Shown piece after piece: positions 20,323 through 26,171 of a stretch of DNA of 64,000 bases (position 1 is its first letter; each line of letters opens with the position of its first letter). The notes under the pieces were generated by a model that worked only from the letters and a program-made list of their open reading frames with translations, was not told where the DNA came from and did no database searches. A program made the translations under genes and the position numbers. Source of the DNA: Prosthecobacter sp. (lineage in GTDB: Bacteria > Verrucomicrobiota > Verrucomicrobiia > Verrucomicrobiales > Verrucomicrobiaceae); the NCBI RefSeq assembly GCF_034366625.1, contig NZ_JAXMIH010000024.1:186001-250000 (forward strand), read 5' to 3'.

Positions 20323-20350
20323 TTGCGCGTGTCCGCTGCCCGCCTAGTCT
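20323..20350 (+). promoter_or_regulatory. Possible promoter of polA
   Basis: TTGCGC (20323-20328) and TAGTCT (20345-20350) are spaced by 16 nt and end 8 nt before the ATG of polA. A small CCGCC/GGCGG inverted repeat straddles the -10-like box. The pattern resembles that before the exporter gene at 14905. Confidence 0.3.
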
Positions 20351-20358
20351 GGCGGCGA

Positions 20359-23160
20359 ATGTCCCAACGCCTCTTCCTCCTCGACGGCATGGCGCTGCTT
20401 TACCGCGCGCACTTCGCCTTCATCAAAGCCCCCATCCGCACCAGCGACGGGCTGAACACCTCCGCGCTCTACGGCTTCGCCAACACGCTGCTCGACATCC
20501 TCAAAAATCAGCAGCCCACGCATCTGGCCGTCGCCTTGGACACCTCCGCGCCCACACCGCGCCATGAGATGTTTCCCGCCTACAAAGCGCAGCGCGAGGA
20601 GATGCCGGAGGACATCAGCATGGCCATCCCGCAGATCAAACGCCTCATGGAGGCCATGAACGTGCCCATCCTCGTGCGTGATGGCTACGAGGCCGATGAC
20701 ATCATCGGCATCCTGGCGAAACGAGCAGAGAAAGAAGGCATCGAGACCTTCATGGTCACGCCGGACAAAGATTTCGGCCAGCTCGTCTCCGAGCACGTCA
20801 AAATCTACAAACCCGGCCGCGCGGGAGCCGACGTGGAAATCCTTGGCGTGAAGGAAGTCTGCGAACGCTGGGGCATCAAGTGCCCCGAGCAGGTCATCGA
20901 CATCCTCGCGCTCATGGGCGATGCCGTCGATAACATCCCCGGCGTGAAAGGCTTTGGCGAAAAAACCGCCACCGCGCTCATCCAGCAGTTCGGCAGCGTC
21001 GAAAATCTCCTCGCCAACACCGATCAGCTCAAAGGCAAGCAGAAGGAAAAGCTCGAAGCCAGCAAGGACGACGCCCTGCTCTCCAAACAGCTCGCCACCA
21101 TCTTCGTGGACGCGCCTTACGACGCGCAGGTCGCCGATCTCATCCTCAAACCGCACAACGACGACGCGCTGAAGGCCTTCTTCACCGAGTTCGAGTTCAA
21201 CGCTCTTGGTCGTCGGCTCTATGGCGATGACTTCAAAGCAGGACGTGGCCGCAAAACCGCTGCTGAAGCCGCGCCGAGCGACCTTTTCGCTGCTGCGGAA
21301 GTGGAAGCCCCTGTCGCTGCGAAACTCACCACCATCGCCGACACACCACATGTTTATCATCTCGTGCAGAGTGCTGAAGAACGCCAAAACCTCCTCACGC
21401 AGCTCGCCCAGCAGAAATCCTTCTGCTTCGACCTCGAAACCACCGGACTCGATCCACGCGACACGAATATCGTCGGCATCGCGTTCTCGTGGAAAGCGCA
21501 TGAAGGCTGGTTTGCGCATTTCCCACGCGACAAAGCCGCCGCGAAGGCCGTGCTCGAAGAATTCCGCGATGTTCTCACGCGTGAAGGCATCGAGAAGATC
21601 GGCCACAACCTCAAGTTCGACCTCAGCGTGCTCCTCGCGCATGGCGTCGAGGTCAGTGGCCCGTATTTCGACACCATGCTCGCGCATGCCTTGATCGAGC
21701 CCGAGCAGCGCCACGGCATGGACTTCCTCTCGGAGACTTACCTGCGCTACACGCCCGTGCCCATCACGGCGCTCATCGGCGTCGAGAAGGACGATTTGTT
21801 CAGCCAATCGACCATGGCCGACGTGGCGGTAGAAGATGCGCGCAAAGTCGCCGACTACGCCGCCGAGGACGCCGACGTCACCTGGCAGCTTGCAGCCAAA
21901 CTGCGGCCTGAAATGGCTCCGCATGGCCAGACGCGTGTGTTTGACACCATCGAGTCCCCTTTGCTGCCTGTGCTCACCAGCATGGAGAATTTCGGCGTGA
22001 AGATCGACGTGCAGGCCTTACGCGAATACGGCGTCGAACTCGACAAGAAAGCCGTCGAACTGCAAAAGCGCATCCACGAGACCGCAGGCGGCCCGTTCAA
22101 CCTCAACAGCCCCAAACAGCTCGGCGAGGTGTTGTTTGATCGCCTCAAACTCATCGAGAAGCCGAAGAAGACCGCCACCGGCCAGTATCAAACGAACGAG
22201 CAGGTCTTGCAGTCGCTCACCGGCCTGCATCCCATCATTCAGGACATCCTCGACTACCGCGAGGTCACCAAGCTCAACAACACTTACGTCGAAGCGCTGC
22301 CGCATGCCGTTTCAAAGGTCACCGGCCGCGTCCACACCACTTTCCATCAACTCATGGCCGCCACCGGTCGCATGGCATCGAGCGATCCGAACCTGCAAAA
22401 CATCCCCATCCGCTCCGACCTCGGCCGCGAGATCCGCAAAGCCTTCGTGCCCGGCTTCGATGGCTGGGTCTTGATGAGCGCCGACTACTCGCAGATCGAA
22501 CTCCGCGTCATGGCCGCGCTCAGCGGTGACAAGGCCATGATCGAAGCCTTCGCCCAAGGTCTCGACATTCACCAAGCCACCGCAGCGCGCGTTTATGGCG
22601 TCGAACTCGACGGCGTGCTGCCCGAGATGCGCCGCACCGCCAAGATGGTCAATTTCGGCATCATCTACGGCATCTCCGCCTTCGGCCTGAGCCAGCGCCT
22701 CGGCATCCCGCGTGGCGAGGCCGCCACCATCATCGACAACTACTTCAAGCAGTTCCCCGGCGTGAAGCGCTTCATGGAGCAGATCGTCGAGGACGCCAAA
22801 AACCGCGGCTACGTCGAAACCCTCACCGGCCGCCGCCGCACCATCCGCGACATCACCAGCGGCAACGCCACCATTCGTGGAGCCGCCGAACGCGTCGCCA
22901 TGAACACCCCCATCCAAGGCACCGCCGCCGACATGATCAAGCTCGCCATGATCCAGGTCGCCACCGCCTTGAAAAAAGCCGGCCTGAAAACCCGCATGCT
23001 CCTCCAAGTCCACGATGAACTCCTCTTCGAAATGCCCGAGAGCGAGGTCGATCAAGCTCGCGCGATCATTCTCGATGCGATGAAAAACGCGCTGCCACTC
23101 GAAGGCGTGCCGGTTGAAGTCGAAGCTGGCACAGGCTTGAATTGGCTCCAGGCGCATTGA
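20359..23160 (+). CDS. polA: DNA polymerase I
   Basis: A complete 933-residue family A polymerase. The N-terminal 5'-3' exonuclease spans residues 1-290 (LFLLDGMALLYRAHFAF, then EADDIIGILAKRAE). The 3'-5' exonuclease domain appears active, because FCFDLETTGLDP (the D-x-E pair), GHNLKFDLSVL and YAAEDADVTW are all intact. The polymerase domain has SADYSQIELRVMAAL (motif A), RRTAKMVNFGIIYGIS (motif B) and LLQVHDELLFEMP (motif C). It fills gaps in repair and replaces Okazaki primers. The ATG at 20359 is preferred to an upstream TTG because it begins at the conserved first strand. Confidence 0.96.
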   Translation: MSQRLFLLDGMALLYRAHFAFIKAPIRTSDGLNTSALYGFANTLLDILKNQQPTHLAVALDTSAPTPRHEMFPAYKAQREEMPEDISMAIPQIKRLMEAMNVPILVRDGYEADDIIGILAKRAEKEGIETFMVTPDKDFGQLVSEHVKIYKPGRAGADVEILGVKEVCERWGIKCPEQVIDILALMGDAVDNIPGVKGFGEKTATALIQQFGSVENLLANTDQLKGKQKEKLEASKDDALLSKQLATIFVDAPYDAQVADLILKPHNDDALKAFFTEFEFNALGRRLYGDDFKAGRGRKTAAEAAPSDLFAAAEVEAPVAAKLTTIADTPHVYHLVQSAEERQNLLTQLAQQKSFCFDLETTGLDPRDTNIVGIAFSWKAHEGWFAHFPRDKAAAKAVLEEFRDVLTREGIEKIGHNLKFDLSVLLAHGVEVSGPYFDTMLAHALIEPEQRHGMDFLSETYLRYTPVPITALIGVEKDDLFSQSTMADVAVEDARKVADYAAEDADVTWQLAAKLRPEMAPHGQTRVFDTIESPLLPVLTSMENFGVKIDVQALREYGVELDKKAVELQKRIHETAGGPFNLNSPKQLGEVLFDRLKLIEKPKKTATGQYQTNEQVLQSLTGLHPIIQDILDYREVTKLNNTYVEALPHAVSKVTGRVHTTFHQLMAATGRMASSDPNLQNIPIRSDLGREIRKAFVPGFDGWVLMSADYSQIELRVMAALSGDKAMIEAFAQGLDIHQATAARVYGVELDGVLPEMRRTAKMVNFGIIYGISAFGLSQRLGIPRGEAATIIDNYFKQFPGVKRFMEQIVEDAKNRGYVETLTGRRRTIRDITSGNATIRGAAERVAMNTPIQGTAADMIKLAMIQVATALKKAGLKTRMLLQVHDELLFEMPESEVDQARAIILDAMKNALPLEGVPVEVEAGTGLNWLQAH

Positions 23161-23181: not shown

Positions 23182-23463
23182 ATGGAATCACCATCCTCTC
23201 ATCGGCTCTTTTGTTCCAAATGCCAGAGCACTCAGGTCATTTCTCATGGCAAACGCTATGCGCTCTATCCGTCCGGCTGCGTGGCGATTCTCTCCTTGCC
23301 CTTGGCGTGGCTTCATCGCGAATCTACACCACACGACTTTGAGTGCAGGGCATGCGGTCATCGTTTTTCTAAGCGTACGCCAACTGCCAAGATCGCCTAT
23401 GCAGCTTTATGGACGACAGTTGGTATAATAATCTGGTGGATCGTGATGATGATTTGGAACTAA
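23182..23463 (+). CDS. Small zinc-ribbon membrane protein, uncharacterised
   Basis: A 93-residue protein with two CxxC pairs (CSKCQ near residue 12 and CRACG near residue 56), which would form a zinc ribbon. A C-terminal transmembrane helix (AALWTTVGIIIWWIVMMI) follows. It starts 21 bp after polA on the same strand. GC content is slightly lower than in its neighbours. I cannot name a family. The paired cysteines and single membrane helix make it more likely to be a real gene than chance. Confidence 0.6.
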   Translation: MESPSSHRLFCSKCQSTQVISHGKRYALYPSGCVAILSLPLAWLHRESTPHDFECRACGHRFSKRTPTAKIAYAALWTTVGIIIWWIVMMIWN

Positions 23464-23476
23464 TTTGCAAGCCAAA

Positions 23477-23539
23477 TTACTCTCCGCTCTTCGCATCAAA
23501 CGCATCACGCAGGCCTTCGCTGGCGAGGTGGCTGGCGGA
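23477..23539 (-). pseudogene. Degraded second copy of the oppC 3' end
   Basis: Read on the minus strand, these 63 bp encode SASHLASEGLRDAFDAKSGE and a TAA stop. The end of the intact oppC gene encodes a close match ending GLRDAFDPKSGE with a TAG stop. The first 40 bp (from the stop codon inward) match oppC at 34 positions. The last 17 match at 16, and a 12-bp in-frame deletion separates the two blocks. The homology stops exactly at the toxin gene's stop codon. It is a remnant left when the toxin-antitoxin cassette arrived, or an older tandem copy of the gene end. Confidence 0.75.
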
Positions 23540-23860
23540 TCAGAACATCTGCTTCGCCTCATTGATGCGCTTGCGCCAGTAGTAGGGGCGGCGCTTGGCG
23601 TGGGCGATGGCGAGAATCACGACCTTCTCCCGCCAGATCATGTAAGCGATGTAGTATTCGCCGAAACTGGGCTTGAGGTTTGCCCGGCGGGTGGGTGGGC
23701 GGCGGAGATTGAACAGCAGCGGGCTCTCGCAGATCTGCTGGCGATAGCGGCGATAGTGTTCATCAAAGGAATGAGCCAGTTCAACGTCCACGCTGAGGTA
23801 GTGCTCGAACGCTGCTTCCAATTCGTCTTCCGCCGCCGGATGGATATTCCACGGGGTCAT
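23540..23860 (-). CDS. RelE/ParE-family toxin
   Basis: A 106-residue basic protein with the ParE/RelE layout: PAAEDELEAAFEHYL helix at the N-terminus, a central LRRPPTRRANLKP turn and a C-terminal beta-hairpin (EKVVILAIAHAKRRPYYWRKR). Its start overlaps the antitoxin stop by 4 nt (ATGA). Members of this family either inhibit gyrase or cut ribosome-bound mRNA, and the sequence alone does not decide which. It is the second gene of a toxin-antitoxin pair inserted beside oppC. Confidence 0.85.
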   Translation of the reverse strand: MTPWNIHPAAEDELEAAFEHYLSVDVELAHSFDEHYRRYRQQICESPLLFNLRRPPTRRANLKPSFGEYYIAYMIWREKVVILAIAHAKRRPYYWRKRINEAKQMF

Positions 23861-24129
23861 GCGATGCGGCGTTGAATCCCGTGTCTGGCAAACACGGCGT
23901 CCACGCGGCGCTCAGACTCTTCGGCGGTGAGCAACTGGACGGTGCCGTCTTCGATCTCCTGCACCCGGCGGTCGATCTCCGCAGCCCATTCGGCTTCAAC
24001 GGACGCCTCATCAGCATCGACAGGAGACGGCATCACGTATTCATTTTGAAGATCACGAAGCAGCGCTTCGACATCCGAGGGATCGAGGCCTCGAATTTCC
24101 TTTTTGATGCGTTCCACAGTGGCAGTCAT
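23857..24129 (-). CDS. Addiction-module antitoxin
   Basis: A 90-residue acidic helical protein. The N-terminal half (VERIKKEIRGLDPSDVEALLRDL) and the EAEWAAEIDRRVQEIEDGTVQ stretch match the 'addiction module component' family that pairs with RelE/ParE-like toxins. It precedes the toxin gene and is coupled to it. It should bind and neutralise the toxin and probably repress its own promoter in the 142-bp upstream region, which contains an inverted repeat. Confidence 0.82.
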   Translation of the reverse strand: MTATVERIKKEIRGLDPSDVEALLRDLQNEYVMPSPVDADEASVEAEWAAEIDRRVQEIEDGTVQLLTAEESERRVDAVFARHGIQRRIA

Positions 24130-24183
24130 GGCGTGATTCTACCTTGAGGAATTGGATTTGTCGAGAGGCTGAAAAGCATCTGA

Positions 24184-24251
24184 TTGAACAGAAGATAACG
24201 AAGACAATAGAGTTTCTGAATTCTCCGTTCTCTTTGTTATCTCCTGTTGAA
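24184..24251. repeat. Inverted repeat of 9-nt units upstream of the antitoxin
   Basis: Arms at 24184-24204 and 24231-24251 match at 18 of 21 positions when one is reversed, around a central GAATTC. Each arm is built of roughly 9-nt units rich in AACGAAG-like sequence. It lies between oppC and the antitoxin gene and could be a dispersed intergenic element, an operator or a terminator-like hairpin. Confidence 0.6.
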
Positions 24252-24271
24252 CTCCGGTTCTGAATGCATGG

Positions 24272-25258
24272 CTACTCCCCGCTCTTCGGATCAAAGGCAT
24301 CGCGCAGGCCGTCGCCGAGGAAGTTGAGGGCGAGGAGGCTGGCGGACATGAGAAGGGCGGGGAAAACGAGGAGCCACCACTTGCTTTCGAGCGGGTTGAT
24401 GACCTGTGCGCCGTCTTTGAGGAGCGATCCCCAGCTTGCGGCGGGGTCTTCGATGCCGAGACCGAGGAAGCTGAGGAAGGATTCGTCGAGGATGACGGCG
24501 GGAATCGTCAGCGTGAGGTAGGTGAGGATGATGGTGCTCAGGTTCGGCAGCAGGTGACGGCGCAGGACGCCCCAACTGCTCTGTCCCATCGCGCGTGACG
24601 CGGTGACGAAGGTCATCTCGCGCAGCACGAGCACCTGACCACGCACGATGCGGGCCATGGTCAGCCATTCGACGAGGCCGAGGGAGACGATCATCACCAG
24701 CACCTTCGAGTAGGCCTTCAAATCGCTCATGGATTCAGCGGTATCCTGCCAGTTGCTCTTCTGCGCGAGCAGGCGCCAACCGTCGATCCATTCCTTCACG
24801 TAGTCGTCAAGCGCGGCAATGAGGATCATGATGAACAGGATGCGCGGCACGGATTGCAGCACTTCGACCGTGCGCATCATGATCGCATCGACCCGGCCAC
24901 CCGCATAACCGCTGACCATGCCGTAGAGCGTGCCGATGACGAGACTGATAAGAGCACCGACGAGACCCACGCCGAGTGACACACGCGCACCAGCCAGAAT
25001 GCGGTAAAGCATGTCCTGGCCGTTCACATCGGTTCCGAGGACGTGCAGTGCGGAGGTTTCCACCGCACGCTGCATCGGCGGCACGAACGAGGCGCTGCTA
25101 GTGACTTTCAACGACTCTGGCAGCAGCATGGGCACCACGATGGCGATGAGCGACAGCGCGGCGAGAAAGCCGAGCGCGATGAGCGCCGTGCGGTTGCGCT
25201 TGAGGATCTGCCAGCCGTCGGGCCGCGCGATTCGTGCTGGAACGACGGCATCAGGCAT
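24272..25258 (-). CDS. oppC: Peptide-type ABC transporter permease (OppC/DppC family)
   Basis: A 328-residue inner-membrane permease. The N-terminal cytoplasmic tail and first helix (LIALGFLAALSLIAIVVPML) are followed by a large periplasmic loop, then LGTDVNGQDMLYRILAGARVSL, and the EAA-type loop (TASRAMGQSSWGVLRRHLLPN). An extra stretch of about 35 residues (around EWIDGWRLLAQKSNWQDTAE) lies between two helices and is unusual. ATG at 25258 overlaps the oppB stop by 8 nt. No binding protein or ATPase gene is nearby, so partners must be encoded elsewhere. Confidence 0.88.
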   Translation of the reverse strand: MPDAVVPARIARPDGWQILKRNRTALIALGFLAALSLIAIVVPMLLPESLKVTSSASFVPPMQRAVETSALHVLGTDVNGQDMLYRILAGARVSLGVGLVGALISLVIGTLYGMVSGYAGGRVDAIMMRTVEVLQSVPRILFIMILIAALDDYVKEWIDGWRLLAQKSNWQDTAESMSDLKAYSKVLVMIVSLGLVEWLTMARIVRGQVLVLREMTFVTASRAMGQSSWGVLRRHLLPNLSTIILTYLTLTIPAVILDESFLSFLGLGIEDPAASWGSLLKDGAQVINPLESKWWLLVFPALLMSASLLALNFLGDGLRDAFDPKSGE

Positions 25259-26171
25259 AGAGTTTGATGCGTTTGTCCAGCAGCGTGTAGAGCACGTCCA
25301 CGAACAGGTTGAAGAGCACAAGCAGCACGCAGTAAACGATGACGGCACCGCTGAGCAGGAAGACATCGCGGTTCTGAATCGAGTTCACAAAGATCATGCC
25401 GGCCCCGGAAATGTTGAAGACGCTTTCGACGATCATCGAACCCGTGAGCAGATGCGCGGCAAGCGGCCCAAGGAAGGTCACGACAGGCAGGATCGCGACT
25501 TTCGCGGCATGTCTGGCCACGGCCTGCGTTTCGGTGAGGCCTTTGGCGCGTGCGGTGCGCAGGAAGTCGCTTTTGAGGACATCGAGCAGGCTGTTGCGCA
25601 TCAAACGGGCGACATAGGCGATGTAGGGAGCGGCGAGGCAGATTGCAGGCAGGATCATCTGCTGTGCTGTGCCCCAACCGCCGACGGGCAGCCAGCCAAG
25701 ACCTAGCGCTACCACGGCGATTAAAAACGGGCCGCTGATGAACGAGGGAATCGAAATGGAGAGCAGCGCACCGAACATGGCCGCACGATCCGTCCATGTG
25801 TCCTTCTTCATTGCAGCCAGACTGCCGAGCAGGACGCCTGCACAGCTTGCGATGACGAAGGCCAGCGTGCCGAGCGCGAAGGAGTTCGGCATTTTTTGCC
25901 GCAGCAGCTCGGAGACACGCCAGTCGCGATAGCGCGTGGACAAACCGAGGTCGAAACGCATCAAAGAGCCGACATAGGCGGTGTATTGCTCCCAGACGGT
26001 CCCATTGAGCTTGTAGCGCGTGAGCAGCGCCTCCTTGATGTGCGGCGGCGGCTCCTTCTCCTTGTCAAACGGGCCGCCCTTCGTGATGCGTGCGAGCACG
26101 AACGTGATCGAGATCACGCAGAAGATCACGATCACGCTGCTGAGGGCGCGGCGGAGGAGGAAGGGGAGCAT
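25251..26171 (-). CDS. oppB: Peptide-type ABC transporter permease (OppB/DppB family)
   Basis: A 306-residue permease beginning MLPFLLRRALSSVIVIFCVI, with the typical first helix. The conserved FDLGLSTRYRDWRVSELL region and the EAA loop (TARAKGLTETQAVARHAAK) are present. It pairs with OppC to form the membrane channel for peptides or, in some family members, nickel or oligosaccharides. The substrate is not determined. The ATG at 26171 is preferred to a start at 26228, because the extra residues would be translated from a short tandem repeat. Confidence 0.88.
   Translation of the reverse strand: MLPFLLRRALSSVIVIFCVISITFVLARITKGGPFDKEKEPPPHIKEALLTRYKLNGTVWEQYTAYVGSLMRFDLGLSTRYRDWRVSELLRQKMPNSFALGTLAFVIASCAGVLLGSLAAMKKDTWTDRAAMFGALLSISIPSFISGPFLIAVVALGLGWLPVGGWGTAQQMILPAICLAAPYIAYVARLMRNSLLDVLKSDFLRTARAKGLTETQAVARHAAKVAILPVVTFLGPLAAHLLTGSMIVESVFNISGAGMIFVNSIQNRDVFLLSGAVIVYCVLLVLFNLFVDVLYTLLDKRIKLYA

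Follow-up and report, generated by a model that had tools for sequence, protein, structure and literature searches.

Homology-facilitated illegitimate recombination (HFIR), in which one side recombines by homology and the other is joined illegitimately, has been described for transformation (PMC3240628), and has been used to explain displaced 3′ gene parts in Vibrio (PMC5361080). Additionally, integrase-free hotspots flanked by core genes with elevated homologous recombination are common (PMC5635113). The locus described here, the interval between polA and oppC, lies in a stretch of 64,000 nucleotides (the window), which corresponds to contig C24:186001-250000 of a 6.6-Mb draft genome (G000), and was compared across a set of 48 same-genus genomes (Prosthecobacter-like Verrucomicrobiaceae). 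The named relatives retrieved through oppC were Prosthecobacter and Verrucomicrobiaceae MAGs, which makes the source a Prosthecobacter-like bacterium. G014, among the closest relatives of the window genome by polA, is an incomplete MAG (81% complete, 5% contamination), as is G016 (77% complete). All positions are those of the window unless a contig is named.

One flank of the interval is polA (DNA polymerase I; 20323..23160, plus strand), a core gene that scores over the cut-off of NCBIfam NF004397/TIGR00593 and lies near oppC in about a dozen relatives, and the other is an intact oppC (permease; 24272..25270, minus strand). Next to polA lies orf93 (23182..23463, plus strand), a small zinc-ribbon-like ORF with a weak match, under the cut-off, to DUF7560. 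It shares 65–70% amino acid identity with polA-adjacent counterparts in G020, G027, and G067, with one more weak match lying elsewhere (G059).

As claimed in a first-pass annotation of this DNA, a second, degraded oppC end is present in the same orientation as the intact end, located at 23477..23539 (minus strand), with 63 bp left of 75 and its own stop codon retained (TTA on the plus strand, 23477-23479). The match counts given there are also right, with identity at 34/40 positions between 23477-23516 and the oppC end at 24272-24311, and at 16/17 positions between 23523-23539 and 24330-24346, the two blocks being separated by a 12-bp deletion. The repeat cannot be chance, with the two oppC ends picked up by a repeat search (direct repeat of 60 nt; 18-nt block at 94%), blastn of the remnant against the intact end giving E = 9e-12 for a 43-bp block, plus an 18-bp block, and the global alignment scoring 40.7 compared with 9.8 for the best of 2000 shuffles. 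The remnant abuts the toxin stop codon exactly (TCA, 23540-23542), as had been noted, and this point is taken to be the junction because similarity among the genus copies of the toxin-antitoxin family also stops there. At the junction (23530..23542, minus strand), the toxin stop codon TGA is followed by TCCGCCAGCC of oppC, such that the toxin stop is joined to the interior of oppC, an unrelated sequence, with a possible microhomology of ~4–5 bp that is not significant.

Outside the gap, six codons differ between the remnant and the intact end, 4/6 of these differences being synonymous, and each of the four synonymous remnant codons is found in the intact oppC of 1–10 of 15 relatives. Since the synonymous differences match relatives’ alleles, both copies appear to have diverged as working alleles before their tandem placement, and they were probably once separate working alleles, not the products of an in-place duplication. 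The redundant end is now decaying, with a Pro to Ala change and a Leu to His change in addition to the 12-bp deletion. At the second base of a Leu codon, both the window remnant and the G014 remnant carry A where 15/15 intact genes have T, which, at this single site, favours one ancestral remnant.

The minus-strand toxin-antitoxin pair reported between the two oppC ends is likewise borne out. The ParE/RelE-superfamily toxin (106 aa; 23540..23860) matches ParE_toxin (PF05016, E = 3.8e-6, over cut-off), shows a weak match to the solved ParE2 structure 8c26 (E = 0.009), and is 55–71% identical to its copies in relatives. The antitoxin (90 aa; 23857..24129), which overlaps the toxin start by 4 bp, matches Unstab_antitox (PF09720, E = 3.1e-8, over cut-off), and scores under the NCBIfam cut-off of TIGR02574. 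Both Pfam profiles exceed their curated cut-offs with the ORFs adjacent and co-directional, and by sequence the pair is an ordinary, intact ParE-type type II module, in which the toxin is presumed to be neutralised by the antitoxin. Alignment of the sequences upstream of 19 copies reveals a promoter-like stretch conserved in the family (CTCGACAAATCC..TAGAAT; 24130..24175, minus strand in the window), and a PADLOC search with the toxin, antitoxin, and orf93 gave no match.

The palindrome placed by the first-pass annotation inside the unit is real (24184..24251, 20 bp past the oppC stop; 75% self-complementary over 69 columns). It belongs to a dispersed imperfect repeat of the form ACAGRAGATAACRRAG ... 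CTYYGTTATCTYCTGT, 60–73 bp in length, found 7 times in the window genome, 4 times in G032, and once in G016, and absent from 45 other members of the genus, with certain copies appearing orthologous between genomes. The further copies in the window genome lie at C8:74765, C10:81295, C11:174896, C14:566, C14:318683, and C28:149202. Matches to Y1_Tnp (PF01797) occur at 11 places in the same genome, with one half-site and no other palindrome found beside 8 checked Y1_Tnp (RAYT-like) genes. A role for the palindrome as a terminus or recombination site of the 732-bp unit was rejected, as elsewhere the repeat is dispersed and unlinked to the toxin-antitoxin pair.

About a dozen same-genus genomes have polA and oppC side by side in convergent orientation, and the intervening DNA is rarely alike from one to the next; among the 48 genomes compared, no fewer than seven alternative contents make the interval a swap site. 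The interval is essentially empty in G011, and contains a 178-aa ORF in G030, a 272-aa ORF in G004, and an 87-aa ORF, a nucleotidyltransferase-like gene, and a third ORF in G001 and G002, with part of this block present in G029. In G012 and G022, parts of the 87-aa/nucleotidyltransferase-like block are accompanied by the toxin-antitoxin pair, the toxin stop lying ~10–45 bp from polA. Pfam searches with the block genes other than the toxin-antitoxin pair gave no match, and the functional labels used for them are our own reading.

G020 and G027 carry orf93 only, with the orf93 stop positioned at the stop of a single oppC end, in keeping with the expectation that relatives without the pair have one oppC end. 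The window remnant occupies the exact position of this sole end, and because the remnant-orf93-polA layout of the window matches oppC-orf93-polA of G020 and G027, the remnant belongs with orf93 and polA. Both parental arrangements therefore exist, one of the orf93 type (G020/G027) and one of the toxin-antitoxin type (G012/G022), with polA common to both. The direction of transfer was sought in oppC and polA trees, with neither allele singled out as the recipient. No second oppC end lies in the interval of any relative described above, and a check of 19 relatives’ loci found none in direct orientation at a short distance behind oppC; among all loci examined a free oppC-end piece was found only in the window and G014. 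Elsewhere in the genus, the orf93 of G067 is only 70% identical to that of the window though the polA proteins are 98% identical, suggesting exchange of the orf93 slot.

On contig C581 of G014, polA is followed by an AAA ATPase and DUF4276 operon, an oppC-end remnant (73 bp, 85%), the 87-aa ORF, and the nucleotidyltransferase-like gene, with no toxin-antitoxin pair beside the remnant and the intact oppC end on another contig (C192). The operon is predicted to be a HEC-01-like defence system (HEC-01A, E = 4e-158; HEC-01B, E = 1e-57), and this candidate (L152, G014 C581 800-2800) fills the polA-side cargo slot beside the remnant. G016 presents a different order, with an intact polA followed by the 178-aa ORF, a short oppC-like stretch, the toxin-antitoxin pair, a displaced polA piece (74 bp, 78%, E = 3e-13), and the polA-tolQ spacer. 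This 101-bp spacer is 95% identical to that of G032, in which polA joins tolQ directly, without the 178-aa ORF or the pair; the G016 insertion between polA and tolQ spans 3900-5440 of L149 (G016 C61).

The oppC remnant of G016 is short and weak, with 1/2000 shuffles scoring as well; the 13-bp junction TGATCCGCCAGCC is identical in the window and G016, and the last ~100 bp of the G016 toxin are 96% identical to the window toxin, which points to common descent of the junction with cargo exchanged later. The oppC breakpoint itself (TCCGCC, 75 bp before the stop) is identical in the window, G016, and G014 despite differing flanks, the G014 remnant being cut at the same base as that of the window and joined to other sequence. 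Shared descent explains the breakpoint common to the window and G016, and explains that of G014 less easily.

The intact oppC of the window is itself a mosaic gene, with its last ~100 bp resembling a different sub-lineage from its 5′ half. Columns 150-375 are nearest to G014 and G025 (87–90%), and columns 375-600 to G016 (92–93%), whilst the last 96 bp are 95.8% identical to G011, G020, G027, and G030, and 80.2% identical to G025. Constraining G000, G014, and G025 to group with one another over the 3′ part of oppC costs 12.6 log units, with a borderline p-AU of 0.055; because of this value the signal is graded as suggestive of a patchwork gene with a foreign-looking 3′ end.

We consider these arrangements best explained by one-sided homologous recombination in a core gene with illegitimate closure at the other end, leaving a displaced gene end behind, and assign this reading a probability of roughly 0.7. 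The observations behind it are that pair and remnant occur apart from each other, that remnant-orf93-polA matches an allele of relatives, that oppC is mosaic, and that G016 carries a parallel displaced polA piece. The displaced ends of two different genes (oppC and polA) in one interval fit an exchange that used homology on one side and illegitimate joining on the other. Incoming chromosomal DNA from a relative would pair with a flanking core gene by ordinary homologous recombination, and in the usual case both ends would pair and the cargo would be cleanly replaced. Across related species, different small cargo genes occupy the interval, namely orf93, the 178-aa or 272-aa ORF, the toxin-antitoxin pair, the 87-aa/nucleotidyltransferase-like block, the HEC-01-like operon, or nothing. 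In the case of the window, one end would have paired and the other been joined illegitimately, stranding the oppC 3′ end between two sets of cargo, and yielding a product in which the toxin stop codon connects [oppC - palindrome - toxin-antitoxin] with [oppC end - orf93 - polA]. The one-sided mechanism, the enzymes behind it, and the identity of the resident half are inferences. On this reading, the toxin-antitoxin pair travels as one passenger of a frequently swapped stretch and does not form a small mobile element by itself.

A history in which the oppC end was first duplicated in tandem where it stands, with the toxin-antitoxin pair later inserted between the copies and one copy decaying neutrally, is unlikely. 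Such a history is compatible with the direct orientation of the copies and with the confinement of the decay features (the 12-bp deletion and the two amino acid changes noted above) to one of them, however it leaves unexplained the excess of synonymous differences matching other alleles, and the position of the remnant exactly at the sole oppC end of orf93-type relatives. Furthermore, no intact end accompanies the G014 remnant in tandem, and two independent events would be needed.

The first-pass annotation had proposed a minimal or decayed mobile unit (732 bp, comprising the pair and palindrome) that integrated at oppC, and had read the layout as that of an element integrating at a gene end and regenerating the gene. 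The duplicated gene end does stand as a real scar of DNA acquisition; the integrating element does not find support, with cargo and duplication dissociating and no recombinase present. Under this proposal, an element carrying an oppC-end copy would have regenerated the gene by site-specific integration at its 3′ end and displaced the original end, with its recombinase since lost or supplied in trans, a course of events that we regard as quite unlikely. The intact end, cargo, and displaced end in direct orientation, the oppC breakpoint that the window, G016, and G014 have in common, and the foreign-looking last ~100 bp of intact oppC would all suit integration. Against this, no recombinase is present among the ORFs of 23540-24271, and the proteins between polA and oppC in the window match only the toxin, the antitoxin, and a weak zinc-ribbon model, with no site-specific recombinase; a genome search for further copies of the unit found it to be single copy, with only the palindrome recurring. 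The pair and the duplication should co-occur if the pair were an oppC-end element, but G012 and G022 carry the pair without the duplication, and G014, in the very arrangement that the annotation had set against its own reading, carries a remnant without an adjacent pair. Flanking direct repeats were found at 0/18 other genus copies of the pair, and the idea that the pair moves as a unit bounded by direct repeats was rejected on this count. Additionally, the displaced polA end of G016 has the same geometry, and the phenomenon is thus not tied to oppC.

The shared breakpoint also speaks against one-sided recombination, as a preferred site would be unexpected for illegitimate joining. It could instead mean that the final 75 bp of oppC serve repeatedly as a crossover site, with cargo entering and leaving the polA-oppC interval by a site-preferring mechanism without an element-borne integrase and remnants cut at the same base in all three genomes, though we hold this to be very unlikely. 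Least credible, to the point of being highly improbable, is an assembly chimera between a strain with the pair and a strain with orf93, as while the window joins two apparent alleles and the G067 and G016 contigs break near this place, the two oppC ends are 80% identical with an indel, no long exact k-mer is common at the junction, and G016 independently has the junction 13-mer along with the 3′ third of the toxin (96%).

One-sided recombination of the kind preferred here would resemble HFIR in that incoming linear DNA would pair by homology at one end and be joined without it at the other, leaving resident gene parts beyond the insert; it differs in that the window case is inferred from sequence alone, and in that one breakpoint recurs. 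In the displacement of T6SS effector-immunity genes of Vibrio cholerae (PMC5361080), new cargo similarly lies beside a conserved anchor, with the older 3′ part shifted downstream and kept as an orphan, however the displaced immunity genes have a possible use, whereas the window retains a 63-bp non-coding transporter gene end of no evident use. Elements that integrate at gene ends (islands at the 3′ ends of tRNA or protein genes) also leave a directly oriented, displaced 3′ gene end on the far side of the cargo, but here there is no integrase, no conserved attachment core is shown, and cargo and duplication dissociate. Displaced gene ends of the kind seen in the window mimic the footprints of integrative elements, and can mislead island annotation. 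The cargo itself agrees with ParE_toxin/Unstab_antitox type II modules (PF05016/PF09720) in that both families score over the Pfam cut-offs and the ORFs overlap with the antitoxin first, and nothing notable differs. Whilst the present study is a cross-species comparison of a handful of genomes rather than a population analysis, the interval shares with integrase-free hotspots (PMC5635113) a fast turnover of cargo between two core genes, a mosaic flank, a replication/repair gene flank (polA), and the lack of any recombinase seen, and carries toxin-antitoxin and predicted defence genes without an integrase. As one genus provides the empty site, two parental alleles, and a hybrid, the history of such a hotspot can be read step by step.
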